This document shows, in pieces, positions 1 through 58,177 of a stretch of DNA of 64,000 nucleotides (the first letter of the stretch is position 1; each line of letters opens with the position of its first letter). The position numbers and the translations under genes were made by a program. The notes beneath the pieces were generated by a model. The model made no database searches. It was not told the DNA's origin and worked only from the letters and a program-made list of their open reading frames with translations. The stretch is from Cyclobacteriaceae bacterium (GTDB lineage Bacteria > Bacteroidota > Bacteroidia > Cytophagales > Cyclobacteriaceae). Location of the stretch: the NCBI GenBank assembly GCA_016787725.1, contig JAEUTZ010000021.1:310001-374000 (forward strand), given 5' to 3'.

Positions 1-653
1 CGGTCGCCAAAAGGTTGAGATAAGCTTTTGCCCCGCACAATGATGGCTCCGGTGGGGCACAGCTTCATGGCATTCTCAGCTTCCTGTTCCGAAAGTTTTG
101 CTTCCTGCCCGTAATCGATGCCCACTTGGGTTTCATTACCCCGGTTGATGTACATGAAAACACGCTTACCGTCCTTCGTAAATACTTCTTCCACACACCT
201 GCGGCATTTGATGCAGCGATTGTGTTCCATAATCATTCGTTTGGGTTGGTAGTCAATCAGGCGATCTTTGAAGAGGTGTGGGAAACGTGAGGTTGAAATT
301 CCCAATTCATAACCCATGTGTTGCAGGTCGCAGTTGCCGCTTTTTTCACAAGCGGGACAAAAGTGGTTGCCTTCAGCAAACATCATTTCGATCAGCGCCT
401 TTCGCATGTCTAAAAGTTCGGGGGTATTTACCTCTACTTTTAATCCTTCTTTTACAAACGCGGTACAGGCAGGGTCGTGCCGGCCGTTGATTTTGCAGGT
501 ACATGTGCGACAAGTGCCGAGCGGAGGGTCAATGTGTTTAAAATAACAGAGGGAAGGAATGAAGACTCCGTTTTCTTTGGCTGCATCCACAAGATTCATT
601 CCTTCCTCAGCCTGATACTGTTTTCCGTCAATCCAGAATGTGCAGGTTGCCAT
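1..653 (-). CDS. hoxU: NAD-reducing hydrogenase diaphorase small subunit HoxU (3' end beyond window)
   Basis: The gene reads leftwards off the window edge, with ATG at 651-653; about 217 residues are visible. The start resembles the N-terminus of NuoG. It has a plant-type [2Fe-2S] pattern (CYFKHIDPPLGTCRTC, then a Cys 12 residues on), the HFCPACEKSGNCDLQ stretch of the His/Cys [4Fe-4S] site, and a CIKCRRC ferredoxin motif with a later CP. HoxU proteins are about 235-240 residues, so only the tail should be missing. In group 3d hydrogenases HoxU carries electrons between the NiFe module (HoxYH) and HoxF. Only 5 bases separate it from hoxF, so the two are co-transcribed, and hoxY/hoxH are expected beyond base 1. 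A NuoG-like subunit of a formate dehydrogenase is a less likely alternative. Confidence 0.85.
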   Translation of the reverse strand, partial: MATCTFWIDGKQYQAEEGMNLVDAAKENGVFIPSLCYFKHIDPPLGTCRTCTCKINGRHDPACTAFVKEGLKVEVNTPELLDMRKALIEMMFAEGNHFCPACEKSGNCDLQHMGYELGISTSRFPHLFKDRLIDYQPKRMIMEHNRCIKCRRCVEEVFTKDGKRVFMYINRGNETQVGIDYGQEAKLSEQEAENAMKLCPTGAIIVRGKSLSQPFGD

Positions 654-658
654 GGTGC

Positions 659-2425
659 TCAGGGTTTATAACGTTCATATTCTTCTACGGCCGCATGATG
701 ATCAAACTTGCGATACGTACTGTTGTCGGTTCCGGCAAAGCGCGCTGTAAAGTAATCCTGAAATTTTTCGAGCGACTGAAGAATGCTATTGCTGGCGGTT
801 TTGCCCAATCCGCACCGGCTGGTTGTTTTCATAATGGTGCCCCAGTTTCGCAATTCTTTCAAATCATTCATATCCGCGAGTTCATTTTGCAGTCGTTCCA
901 GCTTGCGCTGAATTATGAAATTACCTGCCCGGCAGGGAGTGCATACTCCACATGATTCATGCTTGAAGAACTCAGAGAAATTCATCAGGATGTGTACCAG
1001 ATCACGTTTGCTGCTGAAGATCATAAATGATCCTCCGCACCGGATATCCTTTTGGGCCATCAGGTCGAGCATGGAAATGCGTCTGTATTTTTCCCGGACT
1101 GAGATGCATTCACCGGAGGGACCACTCACCTGTATGAAGTACGGATCTTCCGCACCGCATAAGTCTAATAACTCAGCCACGGTCATTCCCCATTCTATCT
1201 CGTAGATACCAGGTCGTTGGCAATCACCCGAAATGCTGATCAATTTGGTTCCGGCTGAACCCGGGATGCCCCGTTTCAGATAATCAAAGGATCCCATTTG
1301 AATCAGGCGGGCTACGGCAGCAAAAGTTTCCACATTATTAACAACCGTAGGGAGTTGCAAATATCCCTTCTCAACGGGGTAAAACCACTTGGTGCGAGGT
1401 TCGCCTCGCTTTCCTTCCAGGGATTCGAGTAAGGCAGTCTCCTCACCACACACATAGGCTCCGGCTCCGATTTCAACTCGAATGTCAAAATTGAAGCCGG
1501 TGATGCCACCAATGTTTTTACCCAGCAATCCCAGCGTATGAAACAGTTCAATTTCCGTTTCGAGTTTGGATAAGAGCCACCGGTACTCGCCCCGCAAATA
1601 GACAATGCCATATGCAGCCCCCACCGTATACCCGGCCAGTATCATCCCTTCAAGCACCGAACCGGGTTGGTTGTTTAGCAGAACCCGATCTTTAAAAGTG
1701 CCTGGCTCACCCTCATCGGCATTGCAAACAATGAACTTGGCCGGACTTTCATATTGGCGACACGTGTCCCACTTTTTCCAAGTTGGGAAAAAAGCACCCC
1801 CGCGGCCTGCTAATCCGGAGATCCGGAGTTGTTCTATTACTGCTTCCGAAGATAAGTTGTTTAGTTTTTTAATGGCTTCTCCGGCTGAGTAGGGAGCAAA
1901 GAAAATCGAATGATCATTGGCTGGCGTAAACCGGATATTGTCCAACGGGGTGTCATAAATTTCAGCTGCTGTTTTCCCTTGCTTTAGTTTTTGAATGATT
2001 TCTTTAACCTTTAAGGCATTGAGATTCGTAAAAGGTAAAAAATCTATGAGCGCGGCCGGCTCCTGATCACTGAGGCCGATGCAGGGTGTTTGAAAGAGAC
2101 CAAAAGAGCCGGTGGGGTCAACACTGTTCATGTGGGCTCCGGTTTCGCGTTCAAATGTTTCACGAATTCGCTCATACCCCCGAAGTTCACTGATGATACT
2201 ATTATTCAAATAGATCGTATGCTTACCGGCAGGTTGTTGATGAAAGAAATGATAAAAGGAAGCAACACCTTCCGTTTCAATATCCGACAGCTGATGTTTA
2301 TCAGCTAGCTTTTTAAGAGCTTGTTTTGAGATGTGATTGTTTCGGAGTTGTTCCTGCCACAATTCAGCGAGTAATCCGGAACGGGGAGGCTCAACCGGAA
2401 AGAGCTTTTTGGAATGGGTGCTCAT
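659..2425 (-). CDS. hoxF: NAD-reducing hydrogenase diaphorase large subunit HoxF (NuoE-NuoF fusion)
   Basis: This 588-residue protein has a NuoE-like N-terminal domain (about 1-150) fused to a NuoF-like domain (about 170-560). The NuoF part has the glycine-rich FMN/NADH sites (GRGGAFFPTWKKWD; GAYVCGEETALLESLEGKRG) and the [4Fe-4S] pattern SCGVCTPCRAG with a later Cys in SRCGLGKT. The N-terminal TPCIGLSDQEPAALID stretch closely resembles the soluble hydrogenase HoxF of Ralstonia eutropha as I recall it, and this is the main reason for choosing HoxF over complex I. HoxF oxidises or reduces NAD(H) in the cytoplasm. The NuoE-like domain keeps only one recognisable cluster cysteine (see findings). 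It is the first visible gene of the operon, followed by hoxU. Confidence 0.88.
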   Translation of the reverse strand: MSTHSKKLFPVEPPRSGLLAELWQEQLRNNHISKQALKKLADKHQLSDIETEGVASFYHFFHQQPAGKHTIYLNNSIISELRGYERIRETFERETGAHMNSVDPTGSFGLFQTPCIGLSDQEPAALIDFLPFTNLNALKVKEIIQKLKQGKTAAEIYDTPLDNIRFTPANDHSIFFAPYSAGEAIKKLNNLSSEAVIEQLRISGLAGRGGAFFPTWKKWDTCRQYESPAKFIVCNADEGEPGTFKDRVLLNNQPGSVLEGMILAGYTVGAAYGIVYLRGEYRWLLSKLETEIELFHTLGLLGKNIGGITGFNFDIRVEIGAGAYVCGEETALLESLEGKRGEPRTKWFYPVEKGYLQLPTVVNNVETFAAVARLIQMGSFDYLKRGIPGSAGTKLISISGDCQRPGIYEIEWGMTVAELLDLCGAEDPYFIQVSGPSGECISVREKYRRISMLDLMAQKDIRCGGSFMIFSSKRDLVHILMNFSEFFKHESCGVCTPCRAGNFIIQRKLERLQNELADMNDLKELRNWGTIMKTTSRCGLGKTASNSILQSLEKFQDYFTARFAGTDNSTYRKFDHHAAVEEYERYKP

Positions 2426-2730
2426 GATGGCCGTATTAAGTAGCCATCAAGTTGGTGCTAAGTTTCCGGAATAAGAATGATAAAAGTCATGCAACCGATT
2501 GCCTTAAAGTAATATTATTCGAGTGAATAATTTGGATGCTAATAGGCTTGTGAAATAAGCGGAATGGAACGCGGCTGGAGAGTATTGAAACCGATTCCGA
2601 TAGCTAGTATCTAAGATTTTAATTCCACACTGAATCATCTCTGAACGGCTTGATTATCAACGGCTTTTATTTCAATAAAAAAATCAGTTATAGCAGGTCA
2701 TCGCAGAAGCCACCCGGAGACCTGATCTAA
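2426..2730. other. 305-base intergenic region between hoxF and galK
   Basis: No convincing reading frame, RNA gene or strong hairpin was seen. It must hold the hoxF promoter on the minus strand and the region following galK. No perfect TAnnTTTG element faces hoxF. Confidence 0.5.
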
Positions 2731-3891
2731 TCACTGAATTATTTCTGTTCCGTTTTCAATGGATGCGATGTAATAGGTGAGTGGCAAGTTCATCTGTTTT
2801 TCATAAGCAGGCTTTAGTGATGCTACCAACTCATCGATTGCTTTTTCTTTCACCAGGTTAATCGTGCAGCCGCCAAATCCGCCACCCATCATTCTGGCGC
2901 CAATCACCGATCTATTATTGCGCATACGATCAACGAGCCAATCCAGCTCTTTGCAACTCACGCCATACATTTTACTCAAGCCATCATGTGTGGCAAACAT
3001 CTTTCGGCCCAACGCCTGTAAATTTCCAAGCTTTAGATCTTCACAACCAGCCAACAAACGCTCAACTTCCCGCACCACATACCGACTGCGCCTATCGATC
3101 AATTTATCTTTTGGCATTACATATTGGTCCAGCATATTTTCCGTGACGTCACGAAGTGACTTCACCGTAGGAACAGAGGTGTTAACCCATTTCACCGCGG
3201 TTTCGCACTCTCTTCTTCGGGTGTTATATTCCGATGTGGCCAGTGAGTGCTTGACGTTTGTATTCAGCAGCAACACCTTTATGCCCTCCAACCTGAAGGG
3301 GATATATTCAAACTCCAACGATCGGCAATCCAGTTTTATAACATGATCTTTCTTGCCCATCATGGAAGCAAACTGATCCATGATGCCGCACATCACTCCG
3401 GCAAATTCATGTTCGGCTTTCTGTGCCATTTGCACCATCGTAAGTCGATCGAGTTGCGTATGCAATAATTCATTTAATGCAAATACGGTGGCGCATTCTA
3501 CCGCTGCAGAAGAAGACAAGCCCGCGCCTATTGGCACATCGCTGGTGAGGATGGCATTAAAGCCGGGCACCTTTACGCCCCTTTTAACAAACTGAGCGGC
3601 AGAGCCTAGTATATAATTAGGCCAGCGGATAGCTTCCACCGGTTTTAAATCAGCAAGCTTCAAGAAGAATGACTCATTAAGATCGAGTGCACGCAGATGT
3701 ATTTCGTCATCCTCGCGGAGTGACATAGCCATGTAGGCAGCCTTGTCAATGGCAGCGGGTAACACAAAACCCTCATTATAATCGGTGTGCTCACCAATAA
3801 TATTTACCCGGCCGGGTGAACGAACAATGACTGGGGCTTGCTGGAATAAATCAGCAAAATCCTTTCGTAAATTATCCACCAAGGTATTCAC
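2731..3891 (-). CDS. galK: Galactokinase
   Basis: GalK phosphorylates alpha-D-galactose at C1 with ATP in the Leloir pathway. The 386-residue protein has the usual length and all three GHMP-kinase motifs: RSPGRVNIIGEHTDYN (substrate signature, about residues 24-39), GAGLSSSAAVE (phosphate-binding loop) and GGGFGGC near the C-terminus. The other Leloir genes (galT, galE) are not in this window, so galK stands alone here. The next upstream gene on the same strand is cinA, which ends 122 bases before this start. Confidence 0.95.
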   Translation of the reverse strand: MNTLVDNLRKDFADLFQQAPVIVRSPGRVNIIGEHTDYNEGFVLPAAIDKAAYMAMSLREDDEIHLRALDLNESFFLKLADLKPVEAIRWPNYILGSAAQFVKRGVKVPGFNAILTSDVPIGAGLSSSAAVECATVFALNELLHTQLDRLTMVQMAQKAEHEFAGVMCGIMDQFASMMGKKDHVIKLDCRSLEFEYIPFRLEGIKVLLLNTNVKHSLATSEYNTRRRECETAVKWVNTSVPTVKSLRDVTENMLDQYVMPKDKLIDRRSRYVVREVERLLAGCEDLKLGNLQALGRKMFATHDGLSKMYGVSCKELDWLVDRMRNNRSVIGARMMGGGFGGCTINLVKEKAIDELVASLKPAYEKQMNLPLTYYIASIENGTEIIQ

Positions 3892-4013
3892 AGGGTATCT
3901 ATAAATTCAAGCTTTTAAAATAACCGGAATCGGAACACGTATTTGGGATCGGTATGAAATGAATCCCTAACAATGTGCCTCGCGTCATCTCAAAACTAGT
4001 TAATACCAGACAA

Positions 4014-57012: not shown

Positions 57013-57044
57013 AATCCCGCAGCACGGTGCTGCGGGATTTTTTT
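57013..57044 (+). terminator. Rho-independent terminator after ahcY
   Basis: AATCCCGCAGC-ACGGT-GCTGCGGGATT followed by TTTTT, an 11-bp perfect stem with five-base loop, 76 bases after the ahcY stop. This is the strongest terminator in the window. Confidence 0.9.
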
Positions 57045-57092
57045 ATGCTAAGTAGCCATTAACTGGATAGTGGAAATGCATATATTCGGATG

Positions 57093-57698
57093 TTAGCGGC
57101 AATTTTTATTCAATTATGGAGCTGATTCTTTACCATGGACAAGGAATTTTGTATACATCCCTACAATTCATCTTCGTTCTTCGAATGATAATAAACTTTG
57201 TAATCTACGTCAAGATTGACTCACCCGTGACACAATCAAACATCTCATTCTGGCAAACAGTTTCTCCAAAATCTTGGAAGGAGAAAGAGGACATAAAGGC
57301 AAGACGTCCTGACATAATAGATTTTGACAAAGAAAAAGGTAGTATCGGACGAACAGAAATGTTTCATATCGCATTGACATTCTGGTGGCCATCTCAAGTA
57401 TGGGACGATAAATCAACACGGAGATTAAAATTGATAGCAAATGTTTTAAATATACTATTTCTTGTTTTACTGTTTGGGACAATGATGTTCTATTTGTACA
57501 TGCAAGACATTAACGCAAAGTACCACCATGTGACAAGAGATTGGATGAAGATTTTTAAGTCGACATAAACTGCCGCTAACAACATGTTTGCGCTATGGCC
57601 GGGCGACAGGTTAAATTTTAGTATTTTTATAAAACCAGCGTTTGGTTTCGTGGGACAACGCGCGGCTTCGGAAGCCGGCCACATCGCAAACACAAACG
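57093..57698 (+). mobile_element. Putative integron-type single-gene cassette
   Basis: The 606-base segment begins at a G^TT site (TGTTAGCGGCA, 57091-57101) and ends at another (ACGTTATAG, G at 57698). The first 11 bases are repeated as an exact inverted copy (TGCCGCTAACA, 57571-57581) right after the single ORF, where the attC-like element starts. In integron cassettes the R'' site is complementary to the start of the same cassette, exactly as here. Start codon 23 bases from the boundary and stop two bases before the attC-like site are also typical. No integrase gene lies in the window. Confidence 0.55.
57116..57568 (+). CDS. Two-helix membrane protein carried by the cassette
   Basis: 150 residues with hydrophobic segments near residues 12-33 (LYTSLQFIFVLRMIINFVIYV) and 108-127 (LIANVLNILFLVLLFGTMMF), and a polar middle (about 40-105) rich in Lys/Asp. 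No family was recognised. The DNA is visibly more A/T-rich than ahcY upstream, which suggests a different origin. Cassette ORFs of this size with no known function are usual. Confidence 0.65.
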   Translation: MELILYHGQGILYTSLQFIFVLRMIINFVIYVKIDSPVTQSNISFWQTVSPKSWKEKEDIKARRPDIIDFDKEKGSIGRTEMFHIALTFWWPSQVWDDKSTRRLKLIANVLNILFLVLLFGTMMFYLYMQDINAKYHHVTRDWMKIFKST

Positions 57699-57704
57699 TT
57701 ATAG
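57571..57704 (+). repeat. attC-like imperfect palindrome (about 134 bases)
   Basis: Paired arms: TGTTTGCG (57585-57592) with CGCAAACA (57685-57692), TGGCCGG (57596-57602) with CCGGCCA (57675-57681), and an inner hairpin GGCTTC-G-GAAGCC (57664-57676). The outer boundaries are CGCTAAC and GTTATAG. The arms carry unequal spacers, which resembles the bulged attC structure. Length is close to the 120-130 base repeats of Vibrio superintegrons. The core differs from the RYYYAAC/GTTRRRY consensus at one or two bases. Confidence 0.55.
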
Positions 57705-57781
57705 ACTAATTGGGCTGTCTCCGTGTACAAAGTGATTTTAATGGAAACTATTAATTCCTAATAACCTGAGGCCATTTTCCG

Positions 57782-58097
57782 ATGATAAAAATGTTTTCGA
57801 CTTTCTTTCTCCTGGTTTCTATTCCCTTAACCGTGACCGCGCAACATGACAAAAAGTTGACACCTTTTGGGCTTAAAACCGGATTGAGATTTTGTTTTAA
57901 ATAATGATGATGAAATCTATGACTTCAACAATTTTGGTGTTTCAATTGAAATGGGAATGCAATACGAACTAACCAAGAGAATAATCTCTGAATTTCGATA
58001 TTCAGTTGGTTTATTGCCACAGATTAATGACTTCGCGTTGGATATATATGATGGAAAACGAAATACTTTACGACTTGGCTTAGGGTATCGGTTTTAA
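57782..58097 (+). pseudogene. Frameshifted small outer-membrane beta-barrel gene
   Basis: From ATG 57782 the frame reads a signal peptide (KMFSTFFLLVSIPLTVTAQ) and TPFGLKTGLRF, then stops at 57901 or so. One base away in phase, the continuation reads FVLNNDDEIYDFNNFGVSIE and ends LRLGLGYRF at TAA 58095-58097, with the alternating strand pattern and terminal Phe of an outer-membrane barrel. A single-base slip in the T-rich stretch (about 57889-57898) would restore about 105 codons, still short for a barrel, so an internal deletion is also likely. Confidence 0.65.
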
Positions 58098-58177
58098 ATA
58101 TACTATGGTTTACAAAAATAGGAATTGTAACATCATTGCGATTGAGACGTCTCATACTATTAGAACGACCAAACCAC

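Follow-up and report, generated by a model that had tools for sequence, protein, structure and literature searches.

The DNA analysed here, called the window throughout, is a stretch of 64,000 nucleotides from a Cyclobacteriaceae bacterium (assembly GCA_016787725.1, contig JAEUTZ010000021.1, positions 310,001 to 374,000 of the forward strand), and it carries a gene cassette (57093..57698, + strand; 606 bp, T57093 to G57698) built like those of integrons. An earlier note on this DNA had described an exact inverted repeat and a palindrome closing at GTT, and both are present in the window sequence: TGTTAGCGGCA at 57091-57101 returns as its exact reverse complement, TGCCGCTAACA, at 57571-57581, the arms extend to 26 nt at 77% complementarity, and from the second copy onward runs an imperfect palindrome, which comprises two paired arms and has its end at the GTT of 57698-57700. 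The cassette holds an open reading frame (ORF) of 150 aa (57116..57568, + strand), taken from the ORF listing; profile scans of its product give nothing below E 0.03 in Pfam or NCBIfam, and no Pfam, NCBIfam or PADLOC family that could suggest a function fits at useful E-values. The palindrome resolves into the parts of an attC site, all given on the + strand: an R'' arm, TGCCGCTAAC, at 57571..57580 (placed by sequence, inverted-repeat and own-start comparisons), an L'' arm, ATGTTTGCG, at 57584..57592 and an L' arm, CGCAAACAC, at 57685..57693 (both placed by a consensus fold with covariation), and an R' site, GTTATAG, at 57698..57704, of which T57699 onward is part of the next, decayed cassette. 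The R cores, CGCTAAC and GTTATAG, do depart from RYYYAAC/GTTRRRY, as had been noticed; the consensus of the family is GTTRNNN, with R following GTT in 84 of 85 cassette starts and the remaining positions free. Upstream, the cassette adjoins an attI-like docking site, GGAAATGCATATATTCGGATGTT (57072..57094, + strand), with a predicted crossover at G57092^T57093. The single-gene cassette of the earlier note stands as one complete cassette, but a decayed second one adjoins it; likewise, the lack of an integrase that it noted holds for the window, but the genome does encode a candidate integrase, on a different contig.

The comparisons that follow support the reading of the window cassette as mobile and as belonging to an integron-like system of gene capture found widely across Bacteroidota, and we regard it as very probable that this system is run by a family of tyrosine recombinases without the insertion of the classical integron integrase IntI (insert-less integrases); this confidence belongs to the core claim only, and the individual steps are less sure. 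In the proposed mechanism, an insert-less tyrosine recombinase, encoded on the other contig, would recognise attC hairpins that form when the cassette's bottom strand folds, as well as double-stranded attI-like sites, one beside its own gene and others dispersed. Strand exchange at G^TT would then insert a circular cassette with TT... at its start and the attC at its end.

The attC site belongs to a large class. A simple regular expression matched the window copy only, and the 134-base site itself finds three further matches in its own genome (four with itself) and, of 39 genomes searched, matches 16 (own included); at this sensitivity these represent only 2 of 15 genera, and some of them have long arrays; a profile iterated on the fetched loci gave 130 matches, some of them in overlapping loci. 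We built a covariance model, R1, from 58 bottom-strand sites (A1), the window site among them, for which E-values are rough. In the window it detects a single full site, with the attC core matched at 57577..57700 on the - (bottom) strand (118 bits, E 2e-28). R1 sites are present in at least 110 of 296 genomes of the Bacteroidota phylum and in at least 70 of 139 genera, both counts being lower bounds with 12 candidates scored per genome; they are also found in 9/9 Bacteroidota comparison genomes, which were picked because their loci had matches, and in 0/24 non-Bacteroidota genomes. A chance palindrome is ruled out by the copies in the genome, the matches in 16/39 genomes, the phylum-wide R1 sites and the R1 score in the window. 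The earlier note had tied its reading to further copies or relatives of the palindrome, which now appear in the own genome, in other genomes and across the phylum, and its suggestion of an unusual attC class in Bacteroidota was right for a class larger than it stated (110/296 genomes). Its other suggestion, a CALIN (cassettes lacking an integrase), fits only loosely: there is one detectable attC and no integrase nearby, but the cassette sits at an attI-like site and the genome has a candidate integrase. The default of IntegronFinder 2.0 for a CALIN is at least 2 attC sites, against the one full attC that R1 sees in the window, and the relevant passage of PMC9024848 allows that cases with a single attC may be genuine. 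An attC subtype of greater length (~184 nt, with an extra insert of ~40 nt) was also seen (L040 124-307, L041 2229-2414, L043 9568-9755).

The first bases of an integron cassette complement its own R'', not the flank that follows its attC. The window cassette has this property, its start, GTTAGCGGCA, complementing its own R'' with A against C at position 11, and so do most cassettes of the genus: at least five of six positions agree in 76/85 (mean 5.47), compared with a mean of 2.79 +/- 0.12 and a maximum of 3.19 in 5000 permutations, and with a mean of 2.67 for the actual 3' flank of the attC, that is, the next cassette (at least five of six in 3/52). Duplicate cassette bodies and spacings outside 120-4000 are omitted from this count. 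The wider loci (one same-family genome and others) give the same picture, with at least five of six positions in 69/81 (mean 5.40), 2.32 +/- 0.14 on permutation, and a mean of 2.64 for the actual flank (at least five of six in 7/58); here 6/128 R1 matches that were cut, incomplete or on the opposite strand are left out, as are spacings outside 100-3000. Except for the first, the bases tested lie outside the R1 model. The pairing reaches about position 15 and is interrupted at position 11, where the cassette start has A in 84/85 genus and 69/69 well-paired wider cassettes and matches its partner in 0/85 and 1/69, respectively; in the 85 genus cassettes the pair is A.C in 70 and A.G in 12.

The consensus fold of the 58 sites has the R box, spacer, L box and variable tip of an attC, and 16 of its 21 stem pairs show compensatory changes on both sides. 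Mispairs in the R arm of the top strand (positions 4-16, n = 254) are A.C in 98 cases and G.T in 23, the rest being of other kinds; because A.C is the richer class on top, the bottom strand gains G.T wobbles. Among composite sites (excluding those with pairing below five of six, with no located end or longer than 260 nt), the bottom strand gave the more stable fold in 50/71 and 64/69 cases. Where IntI integrons have extrahelical bases in the L'' arm that determine which strand is used, these sites show mispairs rather than clear bulged bases, mostly A.C on top and G.T on the bottom; the mispair pattern may signal the choice of strand as extrahelical bases do there. These data bear on a different view of the same enzyme, namely that the insert-less integrase acts on double-stranded attC in the manner of Xer, the hairpin being merely two inverted binding sites. 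The enzyme does share with XerA, XerC and XerD a short catalytic domain without the IntI insertion. The Xer rows, in contrast, are 300-336 aa long and have no C-terminal SPLD-type motif, and R1 sites are absent from the control recombinase loci that were taken from the own genome (0/4, two of them covering one gene). Covariation deep in the variable stems, the strand-asymmetric mispairs and the greater stability of the bottom strand all point to a folded single strand, so we consider action on duplex attC unlikely and favor an insert-less enzyme that is presumably the recombinase and acts on the folded bottom strand.

The earlier note's advice to look for intI elsewhere in the genome led to no true IntI, a classical IntI being rejected for want of any match over the TIGR02249 cut-off, and to a candidate insert-less integrase on another contig (C4), a tyrosine recombinase with an attI-like site just downstream. 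It scores 193.5 bits against TIGR02249 (cut-off 265), its KG..DR and HxxR motifs are 65 residues apart, compared with 107 in IntI, and 2a3v aligns to it as two segments, separated by 23 query residues against 66. Where the motifs were found, this spacing is 65-66 in 14/51 of the insert-less group, 69-73 in 9/10 Xer and 107 in 14/20 IntI. Integrases of this type have no counterpart of the ~42-residue IntI insertion, the region of the I2 helix, which is used to define integrons and is absent from the own integrase, and they possess an extra N-terminal domain, tentatively HARP/XPB-DRD-like, that may help to read the attC hairpin. In a midpoint-rooted tree IntI branches among the insert-less integrases. 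Integrases from an archaeal metagenome-assembled genome, Paenibacillus and Saccharibacillus (L230, L232, L237) also match in the N-terminal part and have no R1 site in a scan for R1-type attC only. By eye, the own integrase is followed by a short regulator-like gene and then a large helicase-like gene (L086 4700-13142).

R1 sites are linked to these integrases in position and orientation. Near 80 named integrase relatives there are 33 matches at 19 loci, and 33/33 lie downstream in the same orientation; the hosts include Arundinibacter roseus, Aquiflexum, Winogradskyella ursingii, Flavobacterium, Cyclobacterium, Zunongwangia mangrovi and Lutibacter. In the genus, 9/30 loci of sub-cut-off integrases have R1 sites within short flanks (eight downstream, one upstream), and at 20 wider array loci motif scanning revealed an integrase upstream of the array, in the same orientation, in five cases, with one more integrase at a locus edge (L136). 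Across the 296 genomes, R1 sites occur in 57/82 with a sub-cut-off TIGR02249 match only, in 24/84 with true IntI and in 29/130 with neither (Fisher p 3e-12, sub-cut-off-only group against the rest), the sub-cut-off matches not having been checked individually. This distribution also addresses the proposal that these are classical cassettes moved by an ordinary IntI, the attC being a divergent, taxon-specific version. IntI over the cut-off is indeed present in 84/296 phylum genomes and is carried by 24 R1-positive genomes, but none of the 59 genus genomes has one although arrays exist there, and R1 sites stand beside insert-less integrases, with only three weak matches (best E 0.0027) beside 30 true IntI genes. 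We therefore find an ordinary IntI quite improbable as the agent. The number of phylum genomes with true IntI (84/296, e.g., L156-L185) is in itself more than the portion of the published survey that deals with this phylum suggests.

The sites are organized as arrays. In the 20 wider loci, 122 R1 sites lie on one strand per locus, head to tail (6/128 were dropped, one of which overlay, on the opposite strand, a site that was in the count). Of 165 located cassette starts, 116 abut another attC; the longest ORF runs on the cassette strand in 150 of 166 cassettes, on the opposite strand in 13 and is lacking in three, and the medians are 743 bp and 195 aa (n = 166). Scans of 84 cassette proteins from the genus and same-family loci, window included, gave matches that include hydrolases, a PemK-like toxin, Gp49-like proteins, a C5 methylase and a ZorA model. 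A transposon with terminal inverted repeats, or a one-gene element resembling a miniature inverted-repeat transposable element, would account for the exact 11-bp inverted repeat flanking the window cassette; the permutation tests show instead that terminal sequences match within each cassette and vary between cassettes, so there is no shared transposase end, and the head-to-tail abutment of 116/165 starts makes this explanation hardly credible. It is equally hard to maintain that the palindrome is a terminator or a structured RNA with no part in mobility, which would explain a strong hairpin with covariation but not a start/R'' pairing that spans the whole gene and completes the attC only in the circular form, nor varying cargo, nor sites downstream of a recombinase family.

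The integron-like system also appears to have several docking sites. First cassettes share a common upstream motif, and GGAAATRCMTATANNNNNNNGTT has four exact matches in the own genome: on C4 just after the integrase, on C3, on C22 and in the window. The pattern GGAAATRCMTATA, seven bases and GTT occurs there exactly four times without mismatch, a count that shows absence elsewhere and not significance, because the pattern was derived from those four sites. Independent support comes from TGCATATATTCGGA next to GTT in the window, which is the same as the sequence 111 bp after an integrase in another species (G008, L054); on C4 the cassette boundary falls ~20 bp after the integrase stop, and related motifs are found at other first cassettes. 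Judged by its sequence and position, the site on C4 is a putative attI beside the integrase. TIGR02249 matches at E<=0.001 in the own genome are on C4, C10, C15, C19 and C20, with none on C3, C22 or C27, so three docks seem to be without a neighbouring integrase, and the same applies by motif scan to attI-like sites in the stretches fetched at L088, L089, L151 and L153. We infer that the enzyme could act in trans on dispersed attI-like docks. Short tandem repeat arrays lie near the docks on C22 and C3, on their upstream side (L045, L046), their translations repeating like ERIGRELTCTGPLQ, and one attI-like site lies inside a large array region of G256 (L139 7143), as if two arrays had fused.

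Several observations weigh against the proposed integron-like system. Own-start pairing falls short of five of six positions in 9/85 genus and 12/81 wider cassettes. No R1 site was found at 61/80 named integrase loci, many with little downstream sequence; 24 of these are outside Bacteroidota, where the scan covered R1-type attC only. Of the remaining wider array loci, L147 has as its sole integrase one of 319 aa encoded on the opposite strand and the rest have none in the stretch fetched, and 53/110 R1-positive genomes are outside the sub-cut-off-only group (24 with IntI, 29 with no TIGR02249 match at E<=1e-25). In the own genome there is no R1 site in L005, which extends 1.2 kb past the integrase, or in the profile scan of L086, so the array there would have been lost or changed. 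In the tree, 5/51 insert-less rows do not group in the clade that includes IntI, and one of these, L150, has downstream R1 sites. HARP (PF07443) reaches the Pfam cut-off in 1/10 N-terminal stretches, and the own integrase gives no match to it. Finally, recombination itself, with excision, circular forms and strand exchange at G^TT, is predicted from sequence.

The remnant of the second cassette (57699..58127, + strand, right end approximate) begins with TAATTGGGCTGTCTCCGTGTACA, which resembles cassette starts elsewhere, and aligns over 245 bp at 87% identity with a cassette of G009 (L042) that comes first behind the integrase and has retained its attC; the remnant itself has no + strand ORF of at least 60 aa and no attC by R1 scan. 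On the upstream side, the chromosomal border is a terminator-like inverted repeat (57013..57039, + strand; 13-bp perfect inverted repeat) after a gene that we take to be ahcY from the look of its protein, and similar repeats occur in the relatives L301, L302 and L303. A congeneric genome, G013, has the same locus between ahcY and a presumed DUF4386 gene with ~0.25 kb between the genes, neither cassette, and an attI-like GGAAGCCTATATCCCTTGT still in place. It is the only genome showing the syntenic locus without insert, and at 81% identity it is not a base-precise empty site, none of which was found; to the clean empty site that the earlier note had named, this cassette-free locus comes near, but not to the base.

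With IntI integrons, such as those of Vibrio cholerae IntIA/IntI4 and their VCR attC sites, the Bacteroidota system shares one-strand arrays of one-gene cassettes with diverse cargo, an attC of R''-L''-L'-R' layout with a G^TT junction and a cassette start complementary to its own R'', and an attI-like site after the integrase gene. In contrast, its integrase has no ~42-residue I2 stretch, scores below the IntI cut-off and has an extra N-terminal domain; the R core is GTTRNNN and not GTTRRRY; the stem extends to ~15 bp and contains a mispair that hardly varies; integrase and cassettes run in the same direction in nearly all loci seen; and attI-like sites occur also away from any integrase found. 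The system appears to work like an integron, differs from the IntI type in a defining feature that was tested, and we read it as a separate integron lineage that IntI-based definitions miss. A fuller version, which we offer tentatively and rate at somewhat below an even chance, is a second, older integron lineage of Bacteroidota whose integrases never had I2, in which the HARP/XPB-DRD-like N-terminal domain together with strand-asymmetric G.T wobbles would read the folded attC, several docks would be served in trans, and IntI would have arisen within the group; if IntI with its I2 helix did arise there, cassette capture would predate I2.

No earlier account of this site class was found in the open-licence PMC literature, preprints and most subscription papers being outside that scope. 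The section of PMC9024848 on Bacteroidetes gives only In0 elements from earlier work and then one complete integron with IntegronFinder 2.0. As far as the relevant part of PMC8138268 goes, an 'integron-like' tyrosine recombinase subgroup is described with the insertion called essential for integron function, and its insert-less members are not linked to attC arrays. The corresponding part of PMC7790495 regards the I2 helix as the step by which integrases came to use folded sites of single-stranded DNA; it reports that IntI1 loses its function when the helix is deleted and remarks that intermediates are lacking. Because 110/296 phylum genomes carry the sites, a large cassette pool, part of whose cargo matches defence and toxin families, has probably been overlooked. 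The insert-less integrases that are linked to attC arrays and branch around IntI are candidate intermediates, and as such they make the origin of the use of single-stranded folded sites, and with it the question of I2, testable.
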